Shown here piece by piece: positions 8,224 through 22,720 of a DNA stretch of 22,720 bases (the first letter of the stretch is position 1; each line of letters begins with the position of its first letter). The notes under the pieces were generated by a model, which saw only the letters and a program-made list of their open reading frames with translations, ran no database searches and was not told the DNA's origin. The position numbers were made by a program, and so were the translations under genes. The DNA comes from a virus. The DNA lies in IMG/VR virus record IMGVR_UViG_3300003690_000081, positions 11,983-34,702 of that record, one strand, 5' to 3'.

Positions 8224-9099
8224 TTGATTTGTCCTCATTGCACATCTAATAATGTAGATAAAAGAGGTGTTAGGAGAGGAAACCAGAAGTTTTGTTGTCA
8301 GACTTGCAAAAAGTGGTTTCAAACACCTATAAAATCTGATTTCAGAGAAGATATTTATAGCAGGGATATAGAACCCGGACAAGTCTTACACGCAAAGTTT
8401 AAAAACACAGTAAGGATATACTGTGCGACTGACATCCATCACGGAGCAAACGAGCATCATTGGGAAAAGTTTGATGAGTTTTTAGATATGGTTGAGAAGG
8501 ATGATGATGGATATTGGTTTATGAACGGGGATAACATAGAATGTATCCCACCAAATTATAAAATTTCACAAAGGGGTCAATATGAAGAACCTGATGACCA
8601 ACATCTAATCTTCATAAAACGGATAGACAGAATCAAACATAAACTACTTTTTGTCAGAGGTGGAAACCACGATATGATAAGAAGCGTAAATCTTTTAGGT
8701 TTTGATGTATCTAAGGTTTTGGCAGATAGATTACAAGTGCCTTATTTTAAGATGCCCGGATATACAAATATTAACATAGAAGGCAAAGATTGGAAACTTG
8801 TAACTGGACATGGTAGAGGTGGAGGAAAGAACGGTGATCTTGAACTTGATAAAATGGCAGCCGTTTATAGTGATGGCGATGTATTCTTTCTTGGACACAA
8901 TCATCAACTCTATGCTAAACCGATAGACAGTCTTGTTATAGACATGGCTGAAGAACGCCTAAAAAGAAGATGGTATTGCAGAGGTGGAAGTTTTCTTAAA
9001 TATGCTGATTATGCCCGATACAGTTTCTATCCAATGGTAAGAACTGGGTGGGTAACTATGGAATTTTCGAAGAAAGAAATAAAATGTTGGACAAACTAA
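8224..9099 (+). CDS. Zinc-ribbon/metallophosphoesterase fusion
   Basis: Two domains are clear. Residues 1-35 are a zinc ribbon of the kind seen in InsA/transposase-associated proteins (C3-P-H-C6, then K-R-G-x-R-x-G-x-Q and C25-x-x-C28), which binds nucleic acid. Residues ~63-290 are a calcineurin-like phosphoesterase with its full metal set: D70-x-H72, GD at 102-103, GNHD at 147-150, GH at 195-196 and GHNH at 224-227. It should be a Mn/Fe-dependent hydrolase of nucleic acid or nucleotide phosphoesters. The start is TTG at 8224; the upstream in-frame stop (8209-8211) leaves no ATG, and the nearest purine-rich site (AAGG, 8204-8207) is a poor 16 nt away. It lies after the lysis pair, away from replication genes. 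Confidence 0.85.
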   Translation: MICPHCTSNNVDKRGVRRGNQKFCCQTCKKWFQTPIKSDFREDIYSRDIEPGQVLHAKFKNTVRIYCATDIHHGANEHHWEKFDEFLDMVEKDDDGYWFMNGDNIECIPPNYKISQRGQYEEPDDQHLIFIKRIDRIKHKLLFVRGGNHDMIRSVNLLGFDVSKVLADRLQVPYFKMPGYTNINIEGKDWKLVTGHGRGGGKNGDLELDKMAAVYSDGDVFFLGHNHQLYAKPIDSLVIDMAEERLKRRWYCRGGSFLKYADYARYSFYPMVRTGWVTMEFSKKEIKCWTN

Positions 9100-9168: not shown

Positions 9169-9465
9169 ATGATAGAATATTTAACAGCAAAGTTCGGAGT
9201 AGTAGCACTTCAATACACGGCAGTAGGAGTAAGCGGTGTAGTTGTAGCTTGGGCACTAAAAAGAGTACCAAACAAGGCGATAAAAGCTAAGTTTGGTGCA
9301 TTTATGTATGGAGCAGGAGTTGCTACAACTCTTGGTCTGAGTAAGTTTAAATGGACAAAGGGGCTTTGGAATAAAACAGTAGAACCCTATGTTATAGATG
9401 CAATAGATAACATATTTGTTACTGGTGTTTCCAAGTTCGTAGAAGGAATGAGGAGTGATGGCTAA
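9169..9465 (+). CDS. Small membrane protein, unknown (possible holin)
   Basis: The 98-aa product has one clear membrane segment (residues ~10-29, FGVVALQYTAVGVSGVVVAW), then a short basic turn (KRVPNKAIKAK) and a second, weaker hydrophobic stretch rich in Gly/Ala (FGAFMYGAGVATTLGL, ~43-58). The C-terminal part is soluble and Lys/Trp-rich. AGAGG precedes the ATG by 5-6 nt. No family is recognised. The two-hydrophobic-segment shape and closeness to the lysis genes fit a holin; a virion membrane component is another option. Confidence 0.6.
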   Translation: MIEYLTAKFGVVALQYTAVGVSGVVVAWALKRVPNKAIKAKFGAFMYGAGVATTLGLSKFKWTKGLWNKTVEPYVIDAIDNIFVTGVSKFVEGMRSDG

Positions 9466-9514
9466 ACACGCCTATCCAAAAAAGAAAAAGAAGATGAAGA
9501 AGGGTAAGAAATAA
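9458..9514 (+). CDS. Tiny lysine-rich peptide gene (18 aa)
   Basis: The reading frame encodes MAKHAYPKKKKKMKKGKK. It overlaps the end of the 98-aa gene by 8 nt and its stop overlaps the next ATG by 1 nt (TAATG). AAGGA (9443-9447) lies 10 nt ahead, and a closer AGGAG is present. Lys-rich micropeptides of this type recur in marine phage structural regions, from memory; DNA compaction or capsid-interior binding is conceivable. A chance A-rich frame cannot be excluded, but both junctions are well formed. Confidence 0.5.
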   Translation: MAKHAYPKKKKKMKKGKK

Positions 9515-10335
9515 TGGCAAGTCTTACTGATAAAACTATATCAGGAAGTTATAAAGATTTACTTCAGATAGATAATTCTAATAGTGGTGTAGATGCCACA
9601 ACCAGAGTTGTTAAAGATGGTGCTGGGAATTTCTCTGCCATTAGGCTATCTGATGACCAAGTGATTGTACAACCCATAAATGATGATACATCTATATTCA
9701 CTGTTAAAGATAAATCTGGAACAACAATATTAAAAGTTGATTCTTCAACAGGAGGAGATTTTGGTGTAGATGTTGATGGAGATGTAGCATTAGATTCTAA
9801 TAGTGGGAATTATATAATGAAAAAGGGTGGCACTGAGTTTAGTGCTACTGATTCAGCATACGCAGGGATGATATTGGGATATACTGCAATAGGGATAGAT
9901 TCTGCTGATGATTCTTATACCACTACAACATCTATGGCAGTTACAGATGCTGACCATAAAGTTACATTCACTGCTCCACCGAGTGGTAAGGTCGAAATAT
10001 TTGCAAGTATTTATGTAGATACAGGACAAGGCAGACCATTAATCTTTGGATTGTCAGATAATGCTACTTATAGTGCGATTGATTTTCCTACTTCAAATGA
10101 CCCAACAAATGAACATGAAGTATATACAGGTGATGAAACTGATGAAGAACAGATAAATCATCAATGGGTAGTAGAAGGTTTAACAGCAGGAACATCATAT
10201 ACTTGGTATTTTGGAGCAATGGCTTCAACAACAGCAGGTGCATATGTATTAAGATGGGGAGGCGATGTTACAGCAGAATATGGTGCATTTATTATGAAAG
10301 CGACAGCATTACCCGCAACAATTTATACAGGATAA
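9514..10335 (+). CDS. Virion structural protein (decoration/fibre-like)
   Basis: A 273-aa acidic, Ser/Thr/Asp-rich, beta-rich protein. The N terminus (SLTDKTISGSYKDLLQID...VVKDGAGN, residues 3-37) is a segment I recognise from phage fibre and minor structural proteins, where a 'dataset'-like N-terminal motif is followed by repetitive beta structure. The C-terminal half (about 140-260) has a fibronectin-III or jelly-roll look: FTAPPSGKVEIFASIYVDTG, then VEGLTAGTSYTWYFGAMAS, where 'G-L-x-x-G-T-x-Y-x-W' is typical of FnIII-like sandwiches. It starts by TAATG coupling to the Lys-rich peptide. Head decoration or fibre is the likely role; exact location in the virion is unknown. Confidence 0.6.
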   Translation: MASLTDKTISGSYKDLLQIDNSNSGVDATTRVVKDGAGNFSAIRLSDDQVIVQPINDDTSIFTVKDKSGTTILKVDSSTGGDFGVDVDGDVALDSNSGNYIMKKGGTEFSATDSAYAGMILGYTAIGIDSADDSYTTTTSMAVTDADHKVTFTAPPSGKVEIFASIYVDTGQGRPLIFGLSDNATYSAIDFPTSNDPTNEHEVYTGDETDEEQINHQWVVEGLTAGTSYTWYFGAMASTTAGAYVLRWGGDVTAEYGAFIMKATALPATIYTG

Positions 10336-10356
10336 TATTAATAAGGAGATTTAAAT

Positions 10357-11922
10357 ATGGGAGCTTATATACCACCACCACTATCACCAGCAACCAGTCT
10401 GAGGGGGCGTTCATCTTCAGCACGGGGTGCAAAACCAATACTTGAAAAAACAAAATCAGTTTCTTATAATTCTGCGACTTCAGATCAGATATTTGCTATA
10501 TCGTCTGAATCAGGTTCAGCAACAAAAGAATCAATGCCAAATGCTATTGAAATCCAGAATAATGGTGGTGTGCCTATCTTTTTAATGGTAGGATATAAAT
10601 CATATACAGATGACACTTCTGATGATGCTACAGATTTTCTTCATGTTTTGTTGCCACCGGGAGAAACATTTAATCCTCCAGTTCGTGCCGTTATATCAAG
10701 TGCAAACGATAATACGATAATGTTTGGAACTGCTGTTGATAATCTCGCACCAGATTCCAATGAATATACAGATAGTTTGGCAAATGTAGATTCTGCTACA
10801 GCATCAGGTGTAGTCGGTAGTCTTACTGATACTACAGTTTATTTAGAGCCTTATACATCGGCTGCTAACTGTGCAGCAAATAAATTCCGTGTAAATGACC
10901 TTATACGCATTGATGATGAAATTATGTTGGTAACTGCAATAGGGGATAAATCAGATTTAGCCAATAATAAACTTACTGTTGAAAGGCATATGTATGGTTC
11001 TCTTGCATCAACAGCAGGGGCGGATGGTGATCCAGTTAGATTGCCTTTTTTCAATGCTTACCACGATTTTGATAAATATACTGTTGCCCAAACTAATAGT
11101 AACGGCAATTTTAAATGTTTTAACTTCTTCGGGCAGGGGCGTTCTGCAACAGAAAGTCAAGGTATAATACCGGGAAGTTTTGCCGTGAAATTCTATAGTG
11201 CTGGATACAGAAAACTCGGCTTATCTGGGATTCATTCATCGGCTACTACATCTCTCACGGCAGGTGGCTCATATTGGCTGAAAATCGCTATAGATGGTGG
11301 AACAGCAGAATCAATAAATTTTGAGGTAGATGCGAGTAATACAAATTGGGGAGGAACTAACGGAGTGCTTTCTAAAATTCAAACAGCGTTAGATGATAAA
11401 TATAATAATACTGCTTCAAATACCTTTCAGCAAAAATCAACTATTGGTATTGTTAATGGTGATATTCAATTTACTTCAGGACAGAGATTATCTACTTCTG
11501 CAATAGCACTTACGGCTGGAACAGACGGGGCAAGTGCTTCATATAATATATTTGCACAACAAAATGGATGGTTTCCAGCCCTTACTAATGTTCCTGATGC
11601 TGTTGGTGCAAAACTCCCAGTTGATGTTATTTATGATAGAGTTACTTATTCTGCATCTGCAAATACAGGCGTGTTTGGATATGATGATGGATGGGGAAGA
11701 TTATTCGGTGCGTGTAATGGAACAATTAATTATGAAACTGGTGCTATTAATATGACAGGATGCCCAGACAATGCTGAATTTGTTGTAAGTGCATTAACCA
11801 ATTCGGCTTTTTCAGGTAAACTGAATGAAGGAGAAGCAGACCGTGTTAATTCTATTGTTGAAATATTAGCTAACACGCCAAGCCAGAAATGGAATGGTTC
11901 TGTTATAGTTAGGACTTATTAA
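10357..11922 (+). CDS. Virion structural protein (521 aa)
   Basis: This large Ser/Thr/Ala/Asp-rich beta protein has no clear enzymatic motif. A Pro-rich start (MGAYIPPPLSPATSLRG) leads into a flexible Ser-rich segment. At about residues 178-220 the pattern VNDLIRIDDEIMLVTAI...LTVERHMYGS is a motif common in phage virion proteins ('I-D-x-E-x-M-L-V ... V-x-R-G-x-x-G-S/T'). The C terminus (RVNSIVEILANTPSQKWNGSVIVRTY) is compact. AAGGAG lies 9 nt before the ATG, and it couples to the next gene by TAATG. Its place between decoration-like and connector genes suggests a head, neck or collar protein. Confidence 0.6.
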   Translation: MGAYIPPPLSPATSLRGRSSSARGAKPILEKTKSVSYNSATSDQIFAISSESGSATKESMPNAIEIQNNGGVPIFLMVGYKSYTDDTSDDATDFLHVLLPPGETFNPPVRAVISSANDNTIMFGTAVDNLAPDSNEYTDSLANVDSATASGVVGSLTDTTVYLEPYTSAANCAANKFRVNDLIRIDDEIMLVTAIGDKSDLANNKLTVERHMYGSLASTAGADGDPVRLPFFNAYHDFDKYTVAQTNSNGNFKCFNFFGQGRSATESQGIIPGSFAVKFYSAGYRKLGLSGIHSSATTSLTAGGSYWLKIAIDGGTAESINFEVDASNTNWGGTNGVLSKIQTALDDKYNNTASNTFQQKSTIGIVNGDIQFTSGQRLSTSAIALTAGTDGASASYNIFAQQNGWFPALTNVPDAVGAKLPVDVIYDRVTYSASANTGVFGYDDGWGRLFGACNGTINYETGAINMTGCPDNAEFVVSALTNSAFSGKLNEGEADRVNSIVEILANTPSQKWNGSVIVRTY

Positions 11923-14910: not shown

Positions 14911-15344
14911 CTTTAAATATTCATAATGACGGCTGGTGTGAGGGATGCAGATTTCACGAATATCCCTATGATGCACAAATTCCAATTAAAATTGGAGGAA
15001 AGTATTCTGTCGTCAAATTTGACAAAGATGAGGATGTATGGGAAATAATAGATAAACTTATAGGAGAGGTGAATGATTTTAACAAAAAGGGCAAGGATAT
15101 AGATATGGCACAATCAGTCTTTTATCAGTTGCCCTTTTTTAGTTGTCCTAATATTATTTTAAAAAATGAGTATCAAAATGACATTAAGAAATATTTATAT
15201 TGCAAGGGATTTGGAATCTCGCCATATAGGGGTAGTTATGGAGAACAACCTGCGTTATGGGTAGAAAAAACATTTGTAATGAATAATGCTATTAATAATA
15301 AAGAAAAAAGAGAATTAAATAAAATGAAGAAAAAAAATGGCTAA
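14889..15344 (+). CDS. Tail assembly chaperone, frameshifted extension (T-like)
   Basis: This is the C-terminal part of the long chaperone made by -1 frameshift; if the slip occurs at ggg (14887-14889), the fusion from 14632 is 237 aa. The frame has no ATG, GTG or TTG between 14865 and 15068, yet encodes a well-formed segment (DGWCEGCRFHEYPYDAQIP, with a CxxC pair) that must come from the upstream start. The later part, FGISPYRGSYGEQPALWVEK, resembles the C-terminal region of siphophage chaperone extensions ('I-S-P-Y-x-G-x-Y-x-x-Q-P'). The GTG at 15069 could start a short form, but that would lose the CxxC segment. It overlaps the tape-measure gene by 8 nt. Confidence 0.7.
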   Translation, partial: GRKALRLALNIHNDGWCEGCRFHEYPYDAQIPIKIGGKYSVVKFDKDEDVWEIIDKLIGEVNDFNKKGKDIDMAQSVFYQLPFFSCPNIILKNEYQNDIKKYLYCKGFGISPYRGSYGEQPALWVEKTFVMNNAINNKEKRELNKMKKKNG

Positions 15345-17613
15345 ATCGATAGACACAATACAAATACAGTTTAAGGCATCAGGAAATCAGGCATTAACTG
15401 CTGCTGTAAGGGCACTTGATAATGCTACAAGAAGTTTAACTGCTTCTGCTATGAGCAGCTTAAAGGTTGGTAGTTCTAAGATTAAAGATGCTTTAAAACA
15501 AGAAAATGCACAATCTCGGCTTAATGAAGCCACAAGAGCAGGTACACATAATTTAAGGAATATACACGACCAAACCAGTAAAACTGGAACTGCATTTTCT
15601 GTTTTTCGTTCTAAACTTTTATTAGCAACATTTGCTATTGGGTTAATGAAACAAACTGTTGGAAAGTTAATGGGTTTGTATGATGATATGGTTAAGCAAC
15701 AGATAAAAATAAATACTCATATTAAAACAACAGGAGCAGCAGCCAATCTTACAAGTCGAGAATTATTTAAACTTGCTGATAGACTTCAAGATGTTACCTT
15801 AGTATCAAACGACCTAATCCTTGAAGGTCAGTCTATGTTACTTACTTTTACTAAAATTAGAGGTGAAGCATTTGAAAGGACATTAAAGGCAGCCCTTGAT
15901 TTATCTACTGGGTTTGGTCAAGACCTACGCCAATCTATAATACAAGTAGGAAAAGCAATTAATGATCCAATTCTTGGGTTTACTGCATTAAGAAGGGTTG
16001 GTGTTTCATTCAGCGAAACACAAAAAACAATGATAAAGGATTTAGTTGCACAGAATAGATTATTTGAGGCACAGAAGATTATACTTGATGAATTGGAAAT
16101 GGAGGTTGGTGGTGTAACAGAAGCAATGAATAAAGCACCATTAGCAGGATGGAAAAAAGGTTGGAATGACTTATTGGATTCTATGAAAGAAGTTGGTGCT
16201 TTTTTAGAAATTGGATTTAGACCATTAGAAAGTTTATGGGGTACATTAACAAAAGGATTTAAAGATATTACTCACGGAGCTAAAGTTTGGGCTAATTCCG
16301 TTAAAGGCATAGATATTACAAAATTTGAAGCAACAAAAGACAGAATGGATTTTATTAACATTGCTTTAGGCGATGTTCAAGGAAGTTGGGATGATATGAA
16401 TGATGTTCAGAAACAGTGGGCTACTGATGCAGGGCTTAGCATAGAAAGTCTTACTCATCTTGCATCTCTTTCTGGTAAATCATCCACAGGATTCTTAATG
16501 TTTAAAGATGCCTTAGAGGAGGCACGACAAAAATTAGAACAGGCTGTGGTATCTTCTAAAAAATTAGGAGATTGGGAAAAGATAAGAGAAGAAATTATGA
16601 TTTCTTCAGCAGAAAAAAGTAATGAAAGATGGACTGAAACATTGAAACAACTTGATGATGCTATTACTCATTATCAAAAATTAGAAGAAGCAGAAGCTAA
16701 GTTAGACAAGAGGATGAAGGATAGAATATTTGGAGAAAAAATAGATTTCACGGCTGCTAAGGCAGAAGGAGATATTACAGGACAACTTGACCAATCTTTA
16801 GAAATAAGAGCACAACACGAACAAAAAGCTATAAGTATGAAACAACAAGCATTTGATGAATCTACACAATTATTTTCAGAAGGTTTAATGACGGAACAGG
16901 AAGCATATCAGCAATATAAGGAGAGATTACTTGATATAGACAAGTGGTATCAGGAACAAAAACTTTCATTGGATGCAGAAGAAAAAATTGCAAATATCGA
17001 GAAATGGACTGAAGCAGGGGAAATGGCATTGCAGACTATGGATAGAATAATATCGATGCGACAAACACAACTTGATGTAAGTATTCATTCTGATTTAGAA
17101 GAATTAAAAGCAACTACAAAATATAATATGGCAAGTCGTGATTCACAAATACAGATGGAAAAAGATGTAAAAAATGAACATCACAAGCAAAGGGTTAGTA
17201 TATTTAGAATGGAAAAAAGTGCTGCTATTTCTGATATAATTATGAACTTTGCTACTGCACATTCTAAGACATTTGCACAACTTGGATTATTAGGTGGTCT
17301 TGCATCTATGCCACTATTGTCAGGATTAATGGCACTCCAAATTGGGCTTGTGTTAGCACAACCAAAACCACAGAAGTTTGCAAAAGGTGGAGAGTTTATA
17401 ACAGACAGACCTGAAATGATTATAGTGGGTGAAGCAGGTAGAGAACGGGTTAGTATTACACCAATAGATCGCCCTGATGATAGGGCATTAGGTGGTGGTA
17501 GCGTTACTGTTAATTTCTCTGGCAATGTTTTAAGCCAAAACTTTATAGAAGATGAAGCAATCCCTGCTATTAGGGAAGCTATAAGGCGTGGTGCGGATAT
17601 AGGAATCACCTAA
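15337..17613 (+). CDS. Tape measure protein
   Basis: It sets tail length and may help DNA entry through the host membrane. The 758-aa product is long and helical with charged heptad stretches. A hydrophobic span lies at ~88-105 (SKLLLATFAIGLMKQTV). Near the C terminus a hydrophobic block (KTFAQLGLLGGLASMPLLSGLMALQIGL) is followed by KFAKGGEFITDRPEMIIVGEAGRERVSITPI, the hallmark end of many siphophage tape measures ('G-G-x-F-x-T-x-x-P-x-x-I-x-V-G-E-x-G-x-E-x-V'). At about 1.5 A per residue the tail would be near 110 nm. It overlaps the chaperone extension by 8 nt and ends with a TAATG junction. Confidence 0.9.
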   Translation: MAKSIDTIQIQFKASGNQALTAAVRALDNATRSLTASAMSSLKVGSSKIKDALKQENAQSRLNEATRAGTHNLRNIHDQTSKTGTAFSVFRSKLLLATFAIGLMKQTVGKLMGLYDDMVKQQIKINTHIKTTGAAANLTSRELFKLADRLQDVTLVSNDLILEGQSMLLTFTKIRGEAFERTLKAALDLSTGFGQDLRQSIIQVGKAINDPILGFTALRRVGVSFSETQKTMIKDLVAQNRLFEAQKIILDELEMEVGGVTEAMNKAPLAGWKKGWNDLLDSMKEVGAFLEIGFRPLESLWGTLTKGFKDITHGAKVWANSVKGIDITKFEATKDRMDFINIALGDVQGSWDDMNDVQKQWATDAGLSIESLTHLASLSGKSSTGFLMFKDALEEARQKLEQAVVSSKKLGDWEKIREEIMISSAEKSNERWTETLKQLDDAITHYQKLEEAEAKLDKRMKDRIFGEKIDFTAAKAEGDITGQLDQSLEIRAQHEQKAISMKQQAFDESTQLFSEGLMTEQEAYQQYKERLLDIDKWYQEQKLSLDAEEKIANIEKWTEAGEMALQTMDRIISMRQTQLDVSIHSDLEELKATTKYNMASRDSQIQMEKDVKNEHHKQRVSIFRMEKSAAISDIIMNFATAHSKTFAQLGLLGGLASMPLLSGLMALQIGLVLAQPKPQKFAKGGEFITDRPEMIIVGEAGRERVSITPIDRPDDRALGGGSVTVNFSGNVLSQNFIEDEAIPAIREAIRRGADIGIT

Positions 17614-20600
17614 TGTTAAGTGTATCTTCTATATTTACAAATGATACACTTGGCAATAATCTAAATGTAGTTCCTCTTATTAACATTACGAAGGGGATTG
17701 ATTATGAGTTAAATATTTCTACTCAAAACCTAACCTTCGATGGTAAATATTACAAACCAATCCTATTAAACATCCCCTCTATTAAGGAATCTGTTGATTT
17801 TGAGAGTAGAAAGTTCAAAATATCAAATGTTACTCTTTCTATTTCCAATGTAAAATATAATGGTCAAAGGGTTTCAGATGAGGCAGTTAATTTCACAAAT
17901 GCGGATGTAGTAATCTATTGGAAATCTCAGTCTTGCACAACTTTAAATGAATGTTTAAAAGTATATCGAGGTAAAGTCAAAAGAGTAAATCACGATGATA
18001 AGAATTTTAACCTCCAACTTGAAGATGTTTCTCAGGAAAATTTATATCAAGAAGTTCCAATAGCAAGACTTGGTGATGAAGAAACTGTGCCAGATAAACA
18101 TAAAAACAAGCCAATCCCAATGGTATATGGGTATGTTGATAAATGCCCTACTGTATTAAAGGTCGAAACATTAATATACAACAAAGATTTTGTCATAATT
18201 TCAGATAGTAAACCTATGTATGAATATGTATCTACGAATTGGAATAAAAATATTTATAACACACAAACCGACCCATTGTGGATATACAAAAATGATAACT
18301 ATTTTAATGTAAAAATAGCACCTTTAAATATTAGCCCAACCTCAAATTACACAGAAAACCAATATAATTTACATCCTGAATCAGGGTACATACACCTTGA
18401 ACCTATAGGTGGTGTGAGTGGATTAAATGCTGTTGCTGATAATATGTTGGAAACAGACATATTAAGAATACCAGAAATAGTACACCTGTCTCACGCATAT
18501 GAAAATATTGATGATTATCTTGGTGAACTTGGTGGTGAAATTAATCTTATGACACATACATTAGATTATGCTTATTTTACTGGAACATTTATAGAAATTG
18601 CACTCGCAAAACTTGTTATTAAACCTATTTATGGACATATACCTGATGATGATATAATTTATTCAAGGCATTATAATATATTTAATGTTTATCTAAATCA
18701 TATATCCTCATTTTCTGAAGATAGTTTAAGATTTAGAGCATACTATGATGATGATTTGGAATTATATGAAGCATATTTTGCTATACCTCAGTCTGAAGGA
18801 ATATATGGTATTAATGAAGGAGAATCCTGTGAGAGTAATAATATGCATCTTTATACTGCTGAAAATGGAACAATTAATGAAAATTATGACATAGACCAAT
18901 ATGAAATGACGGCACAGACCGATGAATTAAATTGGACTGAATTTAGTCTTACCCCCTCGAAGTTCTTATATTATGTAATAAAAAGATTTTCTACTTCATC
19001 AGTAGAACTTGAAGCACAGATAAGGGGAATAGGTTTATACCAAAGAGTTCTTTTCGCTGGAATAGATAAAACTAATTTTTTTATAGATGTTAAAGGCAGA
19101 AAAGACAAGGCAGCAGGAACTTACACAGGGATTCCTGCACCAGAACAAAGGGGTAGTTCAAGGGATGGACACGAAACAGTATTAAACTATTGTGATACAT
19201 TGGAAACTTTTCTTCTTGGGAGTTGGTCAGAAACCACTTTATCGCTTGACACTGGGTATGATTCTCTTGTCTGTATTAAAGGCGAAACAATAGATAATAG
19301 AATTACATTCATTGCACAATTAAGTGAGCCAGTATACAATGTTGAAGGATGGAATATTAAAATATGGTTTAAACATTTTGGAAATTATGGTTCATCAGGA
19401 ATTTTTTCTTTTAGACTTGGTGATTCTGGAATGAACATTTCTAATAGTGATATTTACAACTTTAAACTTTGGAAAAATGTAAATTTAAATTCATATACAG
19501 AAAATGAATGGCATCAAATTACACTTAATTCATCAACAATTTGGACAGTAGAACACGATTGGAATGTAATAGAAAAAATAGGGTTACAAAAGTCATACAC
19601 TGGTGATTTTTCTGAAAATGTAACTATTTCTATGGATGATATTTCTATAGGAGTATCTGGTGATATATTGGGTTGTATGGATGAAGATGCCTACAACTAT
19701 AATCCCGAAGCAACAATAGATGACGGTACTTGTATTTTTTATCCTATCCCTGACTATTTTATACATCACGGATTAATCCCATCTGATGTATGGGATGGGG
19801 TTACACCATTTCAAGGTGGAGATAGACTTTCTATAAATGCAATAAACTCTTATGACCCTGATGGTGGTGATTTGGTTGGTAATTGGGAGTTCATTTCAGG
19901 TGTTGAATTGGAAAATGTCTCTATGGGAAGCACAGAAGGATTTTCAGATTCTCGAAAAACTATGGATGTGCCTGACTACATAGATGACTTCTTCGCTGAA
20001 TCAGTTTATAAATTAACGATTCAAGATGACGAGGGGTTAGAAAGTTGGGTTAATATAACTGTTCCATTAGCAAACCCTGATTATGTCCCTCCTCCAACTT
20101 TTGAAGATGAAACAGCTTTTGATGCAACCCAGTTAATAGAAAATCCTGCTGACATAATAACACATATTATTTGCGAAGAACTTGGTTTTGATAATAGTAA
20201 TATAAACCCTTTAGACCATAAACACGCCAGACAAGCACATTTTACAAAAGATATAAATAACTGGAAATTTGGGTTTACTGTAAATAAGAAGATAGATTCT
20301 AAAAAACTTATCGAGGACATCGCCAAATCTACACGCCTATTCCCTAAGTTCAGGAATGATGGTACATTTGGTTTTAACAGTATGCGTTATACTTATGATA
20401 TGAAAGCAGACTATGTAGAAACTTTAAATACTTCTGATATAATTAGTTTTAAGATTTCAAGAACTAAGATAGATGATGTTAAAAGCAGGGTTAAAATATT
20501 TTACAATAAAGATTATGCTTTAGATGATTTTACTAAATCCTTTCCAATTGGTGAAGGTGTTTATAGATATTTTTCTGACTATGGACAAATTTGGAACAAC

Positions 20601-21626
20601 GACTCATCAGCAGACATGCTTACATATTATGGAATAGACAGCGATGAAAACGCTACTTTAGATTTTGAAAGCGAATATATAAGAGATGAAACGACAGCAG
20701 AAGAATTATGTAAATTTCTCGTAGGTTGGTATATGAACCAACATTTAATCTTGGATGTAAAACTGCCTTTAAGTTACTTGAAATACGAAATAGGCGACAT
20801 AGTGGCGTGGAATGAATTACTCGGAGGCGTTAAGGCATTCGGTGAGGATTACACAATAACCTCTGCTTTAGAAGCTGGTGAGAATGGAGAACACACACTT
20901 AGAAATGGTCAAGTTATATATCCTTTATTTATGATAATGGAATCTAATAAATCCGTTAATTCTGTTTCTATTAAAATGGTTCAATTGCATGATAGTTCTA
21001 TGACACTTAGTAGAGATTACTCTGATACAACTCAACAGACAGTGGCTATGCGTATCACAAATCCAGAAACAGGTGATCATTATGGTGTTCCAAGCGAGTG
21101 GGCTCAAGGTAACGATGTTATTGGTATTAACAGGAGAACTCCTTTCCAATTCTCAGCCATTGATGTTGGCGAGGTAAGTACCGTAGATTGGATATTCACA
21201 GAAATAGATTCCTCTAATATTCCGATAGAAGGTGGTTGGTCGCATACCGAAGAAACAGTTGGGATAGAAGATTTGGTTTATACCTTTGGATATAATATTG
21301 TTGATGGAGAAGTTGGAAATGAGCCGGGATTTGAAGAAAATTCAGGTTTCCCTCCAAGATACTATAATGTTACTATGGTAGTACATAAACCAGATGGAAC
21401 AACAGCAATCGATAACACTGGAAGAATAAGATTATATCAAAATGGTGATGTAAATTTAGATGGTGGTATAGATGTCTTAGATATTGTTTTATTGGTTGGT
21501 CATATTTTAACCTCTACTGTACCATCTGAAGAAATACCAAAGTATTTAATTGATTTAAGCAATGATGACCAAATAAATGTCATTGATATTGTTTTGATGG
21601 TTAATATAATACTTGAAAGTTCTTAA
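17613..21626 (+). CDS. Tail hub/tip protein with PKD-like, Cys-repeat and dockerin-like domains
   Basis: This 1337-aa product directly follows the tape measure, as hub/tip proteins do. Residues 1-~190 look like a hub start, including PIPMVYGYV at ~168-176. Residues ~524-685 resemble a carbohydrate-binding jelly roll. At 687-707 there is a Cys-framed motif (GC, YNYNP, DDG-x-C). Residues ~711-825 form a PKD-like domain (INSYDPDGGDL ... YKLTIQDDEG). A second hub portion at ~829-1130 includes ENPADIITHIICEELGF, typical of hub proteins. Residues ~1145-1275 are Ig-like. The last 60 residues (1278-1337) are a dockerin-like pair: D1279-N1281-D1283-D1287-D1290 and D1314-S1316-D1318-N1322-D1325. The hub parts are thus split by and followed by host-type surface modules. 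Receptor binding is the likely role. Confidence 0.8.
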   Translation: MLSVSSIFTNDTLGNNLNVVPLINITKGIDYELNISTQNLTFDGKYYKPILLNIPSIKESVDFESRKFKISNVTLSISNVKYNGQRVSDEAVNFTNADVVIYWKSQSCTTLNECLKVYRGKVKRVNHDDKNFNLQLEDVSQENLYQEVPIARLGDEETVPDKHKNKPIPMVYGYVDKCPTVLKVETLIYNKDFVIISDSKPMYEYVSTNWNKNIYNTQTDPLWIYKNDNYFNVKIAPLNISPTSNYTENQYNLHPESGYIHLEPIGGVSGLNAVADNMLETDILRIPEIVHLSHAYENIDDYLGELGGEINLMTHTLDYAYFTGTFIEIALAKLVIKPIYGHIPDDDIIYSRHYNIFNVYLNHISSFSEDSLRFRAYYDDDLELYEAYFAIPQSEGIYGINEGESCESNNMHLYTAENGTINENYDIDQYEMTAQTDELNWTEFSLTPSKFLYYVIKRFSTSSVELEAQIRGIGLYQRVLFAGIDKTNFFIDVKGRKDKAAGTYTGIPAPEQRGSSRDGHETVLNYCDTLETFLLGSWSETTLSLDTGYDSLVCIKGETIDNRITFIAQLSEPVYNVEGWNIKIWFKHFGNYGSSGIFSFRLGDSGMNISNSDIYNFKLWKNVNLNSYTENEWHQITLNSSTIWTVEHDWNVIEKIGLQKSYTGDFSENVTISMDDISIGVSGDILGCMDEDAYNYNPEATIDDGTCIFYPIPDYFIHHGLIPSDVWDGVTPFQGGDRLSINAINSYDPDGGDLVGNWEFISGVELENVSMGSTEGFSDSRKTMDVPDYIDDFFAESVYKLTIQDDEGLESWVNITVPLANPDYVPPPTFEDETAFDATQLIENPADIITHIICEELGFDNSNINPLDHKHARQAHFTKDINNWKFGFTVNKKIDSKKLIEDIAKSTRLFPKFRNDGTFGFNSMRYTYDMKADYVETLNTSDIISFKISRTKIDDVKSRVKIFYNKDYALDDFTKSFPIGEGVYRYFSDYGQIWNNDSSADMLTYYGIDSDENATLDFESEYIRDETTAEELCKFLVGWYMNQHLILDVKLPLSYLKYEIGDIVAWNELLGGVKAFGEDYTITSALEAGENGEHTLRNGQVIYPLFMIMESNKSVNSVSIKMVQLHDSSMTLSRDYSDTTQQTVAMRITNPETGDHYGVPSEWAQGNDVIGINRRTPFQFSAIDVGEVSTVDWIFTEIDSSNIPIEGGWSHTEETVGIEDLVYTFGYNIVDGEVGNEPGFEENSGFPPRYYNVTMVVHKPDGTTAIDNTGRIRLYQNGDVNLDGGIDVLDIVLLVGHILTSTVPSEEIPKYLIDLSNDDQINVIDIVLMVNIILESS
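19671..19733 (+). other. Cys-framed YNYNP...DDG-x-C motif within the tail hub
   Basis: The hub residues 687-707 read GC, x5, YNYNP, x4, DDG, x, C. From memory, repeats of this form ('G-C-T-D-x-x-A-x-N-Y-N-P-x-A-x-x-D-D-G-S-C') are frequent in secreted proteins of marine FCB-group bacteria such as Marinimicrobia and Bacteroidota. Its Asp residues suggest calcium binding, and the two Cys may form a disulfide. Its presence in a phage tail is a likely sign of acquisition from the host. Confidence 0.6.
21444..21623 (+). other. Dockerin-like calcium-loop repeats at tail hub C terminus
   Basis: Two repeats fit the dockerin type I pattern (D-x-N/D-x-D-G-x-I/V-D-V-L-D followed by a hydrophobic helix). 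The first starts at residue 1278 (GDVNLDG, then IDVLDIVLLVGHIL) and the second at about 1313 (IDLSNDDQINVIDIVLMVNIIL). Ligand positions 1, 3, 5, 9 and 12 are kept in both. Dockerins bind cohesins or fold as paired EF-hand-like loops. Confidence 0.75.
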
Positions 21627-22066
21627 TGAATAAATTAGAAAAATTAAAAGAAAAACAAGAACCCAATGCACCTATACTTTATTATGGGGATGGCATAGTC
21701 TGGTTGAAACATAATGGTTATCCAGCCGGGATTGAAATCGGCTTTAAAAGTAATGATATAAGGTTAGTTAAAAGATTACCTCGCAAGTGGATTATGGCTA
21801 ATAGCACTAAAAAGGTTTTAATCTACACGCTTACCGATGCTCCGCTTCCTGATCCTGTTGAACTGTTTGCATATACAGGATACTTCAAACCTGTTACTTG
21901 CATACTTGCAACTTGGAATCTTAATAAGATAAGAGCAAGAATAATACCTTCTAATATCCATTATTGGGAATTATTCAAAGAACAGAAATGGGGAACTTTC
22001 GATGGTAAGTGGAAAGACTTCGGCAATACTTATTATAACAAAAAACTTAAACCTAAAACAATCTAA
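21626..22066 (+). CDS. Tail-region protein of unknown function (146 aa)
   Basis: Not recognised. The product is basic and beta-rich, with an N-terminal helix (MNKLEKLKEKQEP), then short strands (ILYYGDGIVWLKHNGYPAGIEIGFK shape) and a central LYS/Arg-rich stretch (VKRLPRKWIMANSTKKVLIYTLT). A segment PVELFAYTGYFKPVTCILATW suggests a compact sandwich, and the C terminus is Lys-rich. No metal or catalytic set is seen. Both junctions are TAATG overlaps, so it is tightly co-translated with the hub and the following gene, which argues for a tip, fibre or fibre-chaperone role. Confidence 0.6.
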   Translation: MNKLEKLKEKQEPNAPILYYGDGIVWLKHNGYPAGIEIGFKSNDIRLVKRLPRKWIMANSTKKVLIYTLTDAPLPDPVELFAYTGYFKPVTCILATWNLNKIRARIIPSNIHYWELFKEQKWGTFDGKWKDFGNTYYNKKLKPKTI

Positions 22067-22720
22067 TGTCGAGGCAAAATGTCGGCAGCACTCCAAGATT
22101 CTATTTGGATTATTTACAATGGGCTTTTGCTATTGGATTGGTTGGAGCAGAAGATGTTATTTTGGATGATGATTTAGACATAGAATCTCCAGAAGATTTA
22201 TTTAGATTAAACCCAACAAAACAAACCATTATTTCGCCAACAAGCGGATGGGATTCTGATGAAAAATATATTAGAATACCGACAGGATTGTCCACTTTAG
22301 AACAAGCGAATTTTAATTATAGTTTTATTCTTGGTCATAATTTTAAAGAAGCAAATGTAGTTTTTCTTTCTACAACATCAAACGAGAATAGTTCTGATAA
22401 TTATAATGCAGCTGATGAAATAAATTTTGTCGGTTCAAACTATAATGGATGGTCTGGCTATACCTTCACAGAGCAAGACGCCTCCCCTCAAGAATATTAC
22501 TCACATATTTTACTTACTTTGATTAGGCTTGAAGGTGGGAGTGATGTGCCAATTAAGATTGGTGCATTCTCATTTGGCAGATATTACGATATGACCAATG
22601 CCCCCAACCTTTCACTCACACTTACAAGAGAATATGGATATGATAAAATGACCGCTTATGATGGCACGACTTTGACTAATGCAAACTGGACACGCCCTGC
22701 TGATTGGGGTGATTTACCTG
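22066..22720 (+). CDS. Virion structural protein, cut by the right edge
   Basis: The ATG overlaps the preceding stop (TAATG) and the frame stays open for 218 codons to the window end, so the gene is truncated. The start SRQNVGSTPRFYLDYLQWAFAIG, the following LFRLNPTKQTI and the middle (NYSFILGHNF) resemble proteins seen beside tail-tip genes in marine phages, where a beta-sandwich region (VPIKIGAFSFGRYYDM then APNLSLTLTREYGYDK) follows. That resemblance is from memory. It is likely a tail-tip or fibre protein. No enzyme motif is visible in the part present. Confidence 0.7.
   Translation, partial: MSRQNVGSTPRFYLDYLQWAFAIGLVGAEDVILDDDLDIESPEDLFRLNPTKQTIISPTSGWDSDEKYIRIPTGLSTLEQANFNYSFILGHNFKEANVVFLSTTSNENSSDNYNAADEINFVGSNYNGWSGYTFTEQDASPQEYYSHILLTLIRLEGGSDVPIKIGAFSFGRYYDMTNAPNLSLTLTREYGYDKMTAYDGTTLTNANWTRPADWGDLP

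Follow-up and report, generated by a model that had tools for sequence, protein, structure and literature searches.

Phages have their tail hubs synthesised in the host cytoplasm, and the secretion systems of the host do not carry them out, so a domain used in export or surface assembly would have no obvious use on a hub inside the cell. The interaction between cohesins and dockerins is known mainly from cellulosomes. The locus described here raises the question of what a dockerin-like domain does at the very end of a putative tail hub. We analysed a stretch of viral DNA of 22,720 nucleotides (the window), which covers positions 11983-34702 of the 34,702-base IMG/VR record IMGVR_UViG_3300003690_000081. 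The two ends of the record share a 91-base overlap (window 22630-22720 = L002:1-91), which makes it likely that the 34.7-kb genome forms a circle and, except for a short masked stretch, is complete.

The putative tail hub and its C-terminal domain

A preliminary description of this DNA had called the 1337-aa protein a tail hub. Its gene directly follows that of the tape measure, both in the window and in three relatives (L061, L062 and L065), and this position supports the label. No family match of its own backs it: the protein matches no Pfam or PHROG family as a hub, and the hub relatives have no PHROG match. The hub shares the place after the tape measure, the conserved core and the variable C-terminal part with lambda J and the Tal-type hub/tip proteins, but it ends in a dockerin, which no hub in the literature searched was found to do, and its relatives are without a PHROG match. 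A structure model of the hub core, built from 11 sequences, had a pLDDT of 44 and was not used. The features of the locus are:

15337..17613, + strand: 758-aa tape-measure protein, its gene directly preceding that of the hub (match to PHROG 27166, tail length tape measure protein, with E 1.4e-33)
17613..21626, + strand: putative tail hub/tip protein, 1337 aa (ORF directly downstream of the tape-measure gene)
19671..19742, + strand: repeat module GCMDEDAYNYNPEATIDDGTCIFY at aa 687-710, of a kind common in proteins of Marinisomatota and in some of Flavobacteriales
20160..21050, + strand: conserved hub core with the (A/I)FGEDYT motif, about aa 850-1145 (alignment of 11 hubs)
21429..21623, + strand: type I dockerin at the C-terminus, as modelled by AlphaFold2 for aa 1273-1337 (Dockerin_1 matches aa 1278-1333)
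21447..21482, + strand: calcium loop 1, DVNLDGGIDVLD, aa 1279-1290 (ligands D1, N3, D5, D9, D12)
21552..21587, + strand: calcium loop 2, DLSNDDQINVID, aa 1314-1325 (ligands D1, S3, D5, N9, D12)
21626..22066, + strand: conserved gene for a small protein of 146 aa, which follows the hub and also adjoins dockerin-less hubs; not cohesin-like
22066..22720, + strand: start of a 'TPRFYxD' tail protein, which crosses the record junction and is followed by a paralogue; not cohesin-like

The last ORF of the window runs over the junction into L002:1-456, and the two 'TPRFYxD' tail proteins stand as tandem paralogues (window 22066-22720 and L002:456-1496). In most loci with a long enough flank, this family was found downstream of the hub.

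The C-terminal end of the hub reads ...NGDVNLDGGIDVLDIVLLVGHILTSTVPSEEIPKYLIDLSNDDQINVIDIVLMVNIILESS. The preliminary description had recognised here two calcium loops of the dockerin type, each keeping the ligand pattern at positions 1, 3, 5, 9 and 12, and both loop sequences bear this out. It had also proposed a profile search and a structure prediction, and both agreed with its view. The Dockerin_1 family (Pfam PF00404) matched the whole protein with 25.8 bits (E 1.3e-5) against a curated cut-off of 22.9, and the last 69 aa alone with 31.6 bits (E 1.9e-7; 31.9 bits for the C-terminal stretch in the test with 43 copies described below). Nothing else in the 34.7-kb record matched Dockerin_1. 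When aa 1273-1337 were modelled by AlphaFold2 with an alignment of 43 homologues, the model reached a pLDDT of 89.2 and had the paired calcium-loop and helix fold. Its best 30 matches in a comparison with PDB structures were all dockerins, with TM-scores of 0.61-0.78 on the query, and many of these structures are dockerins in complex with cohesins. Ordinary EF hands ranked below the dockerins, with a probability of at most 0.07. A profile search of PDB sequences likewise placed dockerins of cellulosome-type systems at the top. By the profile, ligand and fold tests applied, the C-terminal domain of the hub is a type I dockerin.

Classical Clostridium dockerins carry a Ser-Thr pair at positions 10 and 11, whereas the phage dockerins have V/I and mostly L/V there. 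Otherwise the domain resembles the type I dockerins of cellulosomes (PF00404; PDB 4dh2, 2vn5 and 1ohz), with a duplicated 12-residue calcium loop and helix, a length of about 60 residues and the same fold. Unlike these, it sits on a tail protein without a function in secretion.

Homologous hubs and change in the dockerin

A search with the phage terminase gave 49 viral contigs. Among these is G006, whose genes are in the order of the window. Its hub is divided over two genes, the second of which likewise ends in a dockerin. The two genes overlap (L061:6609-9389 and 9382-11337, minus strand; 651 and 926 aa), and both the core match and the dockerin are in the second one only. An alignment of the C-terminal parts of the window hub and the G006 hub found 18 hub loci, and a further 61 and 9 came from two sub-alignments. 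Since the search patterns of these scans sit in the core, the hubs were not sampled by their dockerin. After contigs seen twice had been removed by hand, 69 hubs with a closed C-terminus remained, the window included. A strict two-loop dockerin ends 62 of them, two have a degenerate second loop (L222 and L231) and five have no proper dockerin (L066, L069, L070, L075 and L242). Many hubs (L185, L187, L193-L196, L198, L203 and L205) have an extra single calcium loop, which precedes the two-loop dockerin by about 25-35 residues.

Dockerin_1 matched all of the 43 non-redundant hub dockerins, the window included (E <= 0.01), and among 11 diverse hub dockerins Asp 1, 5 and 12 of each loop were the only invariant columns. 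Because the domain is C-terminal in most hubs that were found by their core, is matched by Dockerin_1 in 43 of 43 copies and has a confidently predicted fold, it is beyond a chance resemblance.

In the more distant relatives L062 and L065 the hub stops where the core ends. The same holds for three contigs from Marinisomatota genomes (L166-L168), which have the hub core and no dockerin; L168 comes from a 502-kb contig, so at least this one looks like a prophage. Judged from these sequences, the dockerin is an add-on to a hub core that is able to exist without it. Core and dockerin together were found in no Marinisomatota genome. Single queries recovered little: the hub as a single sequence had no match among viral contigs, tblastn with the window hub and the core of the L073 hub had none among named phages, the L073 dockerin had one weak match among named phages, in an unannotated faecal record, and the dockerin alignment A2 matched only G006 among viral contigs.

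We then compared closely related hubs. In 13 of 15 close pairs, which are partly non-independent, dN was higher in the dockerin than in the adjacent core. The pair L204/L239 shares 93% identity in the core and 50% in the dockerin, with conserved DNA on both flanks: the DNA identity falls to about 63-70% across the dockerin and returns to 93% around the stop codon. In the pair L207/L212 the identity dips over the second repeat and is 98-100% on its far side. Between close pairs there was little or no change at ligand positions 1, 3, 5, 9 and 12. Positions 7 and 15 changed most, followed by 2 and 18. In cellulosome dockerins the specificity positions are 10 and 11 (PMC8063739), and the idea that the fastest-changing positions are exactly those of cohesin specificity was dropped, the most variable ones being 7, 15, 2 and 18. 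The dockerin is not the only part that changes fast, since the hub has a second variable zone in its middle. Taken from these alignments, the dockerin appears to evolve like an exposed part.

Cellular dockerins, cohesins and the candidate host

Since the dockerin alignment A4 was too variable for a scan of a genome collection, the single dockerin L073 was used as the query. Its best match in the species genome collection was Ca. Neomarinimicrobiota SP3060, a member of Marinisomatota (Ca. Neomarinimicrobiota, SAR406). A profile of hub plus dockerin matched 149 of 245 Marinisomatota genomes versus 42 of 296 Bacteroidota genomes, with a best dockerin score of 79 versus 54 bits. When 32 dockerin-bearing genomes from many phyla were searched with the profile of 43 dockerins, three Marinisomatota genomes (1.5-2.6 Mb) scored highest, with 71, 72 and 79 bits, and their matches numbered 43, 95 and 108. 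Genomes of Acetivibrio, Muribaculaceae and Ruminococcus had equal copy numbers with weaker best matches, and single good matches beyond Marinisomatota came from Ruminococcus (67 bits) and WOR-3 (66 bits).

The closest sequences are dockerins of secreted Marinisomatota proteins, which have the domain exactly at the C-terminus as the hub does (e.g. L085:1309-2430, 373 aa). These proteins have an apparent signal sequence and are made for export, in contrast to the hub, which is a virion protein.

The hub carries a further repeat with cellular counterparts. Its GCMD...GTC repeat (19671-19742) was present in seven of 14 genomes tested, five dockerin-rich Marinisomatota, with several copies in each, and two Flavobacteriales. 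It was absent from the remaining genomes of the 14, including two with dockerin-less hub relatives. Dockerin similarity and the GCMD repeat together point indirectly to Marinisomatota as the host, and the relatives of the hub core in three contigs of that phylum speak for it as well. These Marinisomatota relatives have no dockerin, and a direct link to a host genome was found for no phage of the dockerin-bearing clade. A terminase profile run against the 245 Marinisomatota genomes gave a best score of 304 bits, and as this gene and its neighbours look distant, it was not used as a host link. On the sequence comparisons made, Marinisomatota (SAR406) are most likely the hosts of the dockerin-bearing phages.

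The preliminary description had suggested looking for cohesin-like domains both in this phage and in candidate hosts, and the two sides gave different answers. On the phage side there was nothing to build on. Pfam found no cohesin in this phage, and none above the cut-off (24.1 bits for the cohesin profile) in 24 relatives. In a profile comparison with 16 cellular cohesin segments, the families of the small protein and the TPRFYxD protein reached a probability of about 0.1%. A phage-encoded cohesin was thus rejected, as none was found in the phage, in the 24 relatives above the cut-off or in the downstream tail proteins. One hub (L071:3483-6851), with a long extra region between core and dockerin, has a sub-threshold cohesin-like match of 11.5 bits, which was not counted.

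In Marinisomatota, on the other hand, 91 of 149 genomes (61%) had a cohesin match, 82 of them over the cut-off, with mostly modest scores. Dockerins far outnumber the cohesin matches in the genomes examined. Three of the proteins were looked at individually. A 250-aa protein consists of a cohesin-like domain (21.0 bits, below the cut-off) and a type 9 secretion tail and little else; the second, a 2687-aa stretch, has fn3, a cohesin (24.4 bits) and, at a lower score, a type 9 secretion tail; the third has fn3 and a cohesin (32.5 bits). Two of the examined cohesin proteins end in a Por_Secre_tail sorting domain. Since cohesins with secretion tails occur together with many dockerin proteins, these hosts appear to display cohesins and to secrete dockerin proteins, which on sequence grounds suggests an apparent surface docking system in Marinisomatota, an uncultured phylum. 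A cohesin-like domain joined to a type 9 secretion sorting tail was seen at L171:2720-3472 and L170:2046-10142, in genomes with dozens of dockerins.

Possible roles of the hub dockerin

Two uses had been offered in the preliminary description, namely that the domain holds a detachable receptor-binding protein on the tail or grips a cohesin of the host. Because no cohesin was found in the phage or, above the cut-off, in 24 relatives, the neighbouring proteins are not cohesin-like and the probable host phylum often has cohesins, gripping a host cohesin seems to fit better. We infer that the last 60 residues, a true dockerin module, form the host-facing tip of the tail hub in a group of uncultured marine phages. 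On a virion in seawater, both loops would hold calcium and the dockerin would be folded. The tip would then insert into cohesin domains that the host, most likely a member of Marinisomatota, displays on its outer surface. These sockets would normally be taken by the host's own secreted dockerin-bearing proteins, and adsorption would thus proceed by molecular mimicry of an extracellular assembly system of the host. We give a probability of roughly 60% to this reading, in which the hub end binds the receptor by imitating the dockerins of the host and fitting into its surface cohesins. That a widespread marine phage group adsorbs by cohesin-dockerin docking, with the surface cohesins of Marinisomatota as receptor, has in our estimate about even chances.

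The main rival is an assembly clip, in which the dockerin binds another tail protein of the phage, such as the small or the TPRFYxD protein, and so holds a receptor-binding part on the hub. Wherever the flanks of a locus were read, hub, small gene and TPRFYxD gene follow one another in this order, and the small gene is missing beside some dockerin-less hubs (L062 and L065), both of which speak for a clip. However, the two downstream families also adjoin hubs without a proper dockerin (L066, L069 and L075), no cohesin was found in the phage, in 24 relatives above the cut-off or in the profile comparison of these families, and an internal clip is not expected to outpace the hub core in change. 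We regard it as unlikely. Somewhat less likely again is a host-facing dockerin whose ligand is not a cohesin, e.g. another surface protein or a polysaccharide. The modest cohesin matches, their lack in about 40% of the genomes and the large excess of dockerins over them would agree with such a ligand, but cohesins are the known partners of the best-matching PDB dockerins, and the candidate hosts do have cohesin proteins with secretion tails.

A role that needs no partner at all is that of a calcium-stabilised cap aiding the folding of the C-terminus. Calcium loops can stabilise proteins, and the domain is at the very C-terminus of the hub. Nevertheless, the family includes hubs that lack a dockerin, and a cap would need neither to resemble host dockerins most closely nor to change faster than the core, which makes this role quite improbable. 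We give hardly any weight to a dockerin that was acquired from host DNA and is functionless in the phage: the hub does carry another host-type repeat (GCMD), but the dockerin is kept in 64 of the 69 closed hubs over a large divergence, and its calcium ligands are invariant.

To our knowledge, the receptors of phages on uncultured ocean phyla are essentially unknown. If the host-cohesin reading is true, the tail sequence alone names a receptor class (surface cohesins), gives a testable protein pair and provides dozens of orphan viral contigs with a host marker. The interaction of cohesins and dockerins would then have a new use, and Marinisomatota would seem to possess a docking system on the cell surface that is worth studying in its own right.

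The preliminary description knew of no earlier account of a dockerin on a tail hub, and neither did we find one in a literature search that covered few subscription papers, so that an earlier description is possible. No paper was found with both Marinimicrobia and dockerin. Two phage proteins have been mentioned together with dockerins (PMC3558961 and PMC5967307 cover the two phages). For gene 40 of Vibrio phage VvAW1, 'dockerin' is a BLAST remark on a possible integration-site gene, and Gp02 of E. coli phage vB_EcoS_HSE2 is a tailspike-like protein that was likened to a 'dockerin carbohydrate binding module' (PDB 2wz8). Unlike the window hub, neither is a hub that carries a dockerin of two loops. 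Both dockerins and tail hubs are known, and what appears to be new here is a dockerin in the role of a tail-hub part.

Two further genes of the record were noted. A 291-aa protein at window 8224-9099 shows a zinc-finger-like segment (CPHC...CQTC) in its N-terminal part and matches metallophosphoesterases weakly, and the minus strand at L002:10652-11296 encodes a protein of the Gene product 88 family (PF17338, 91 bits).
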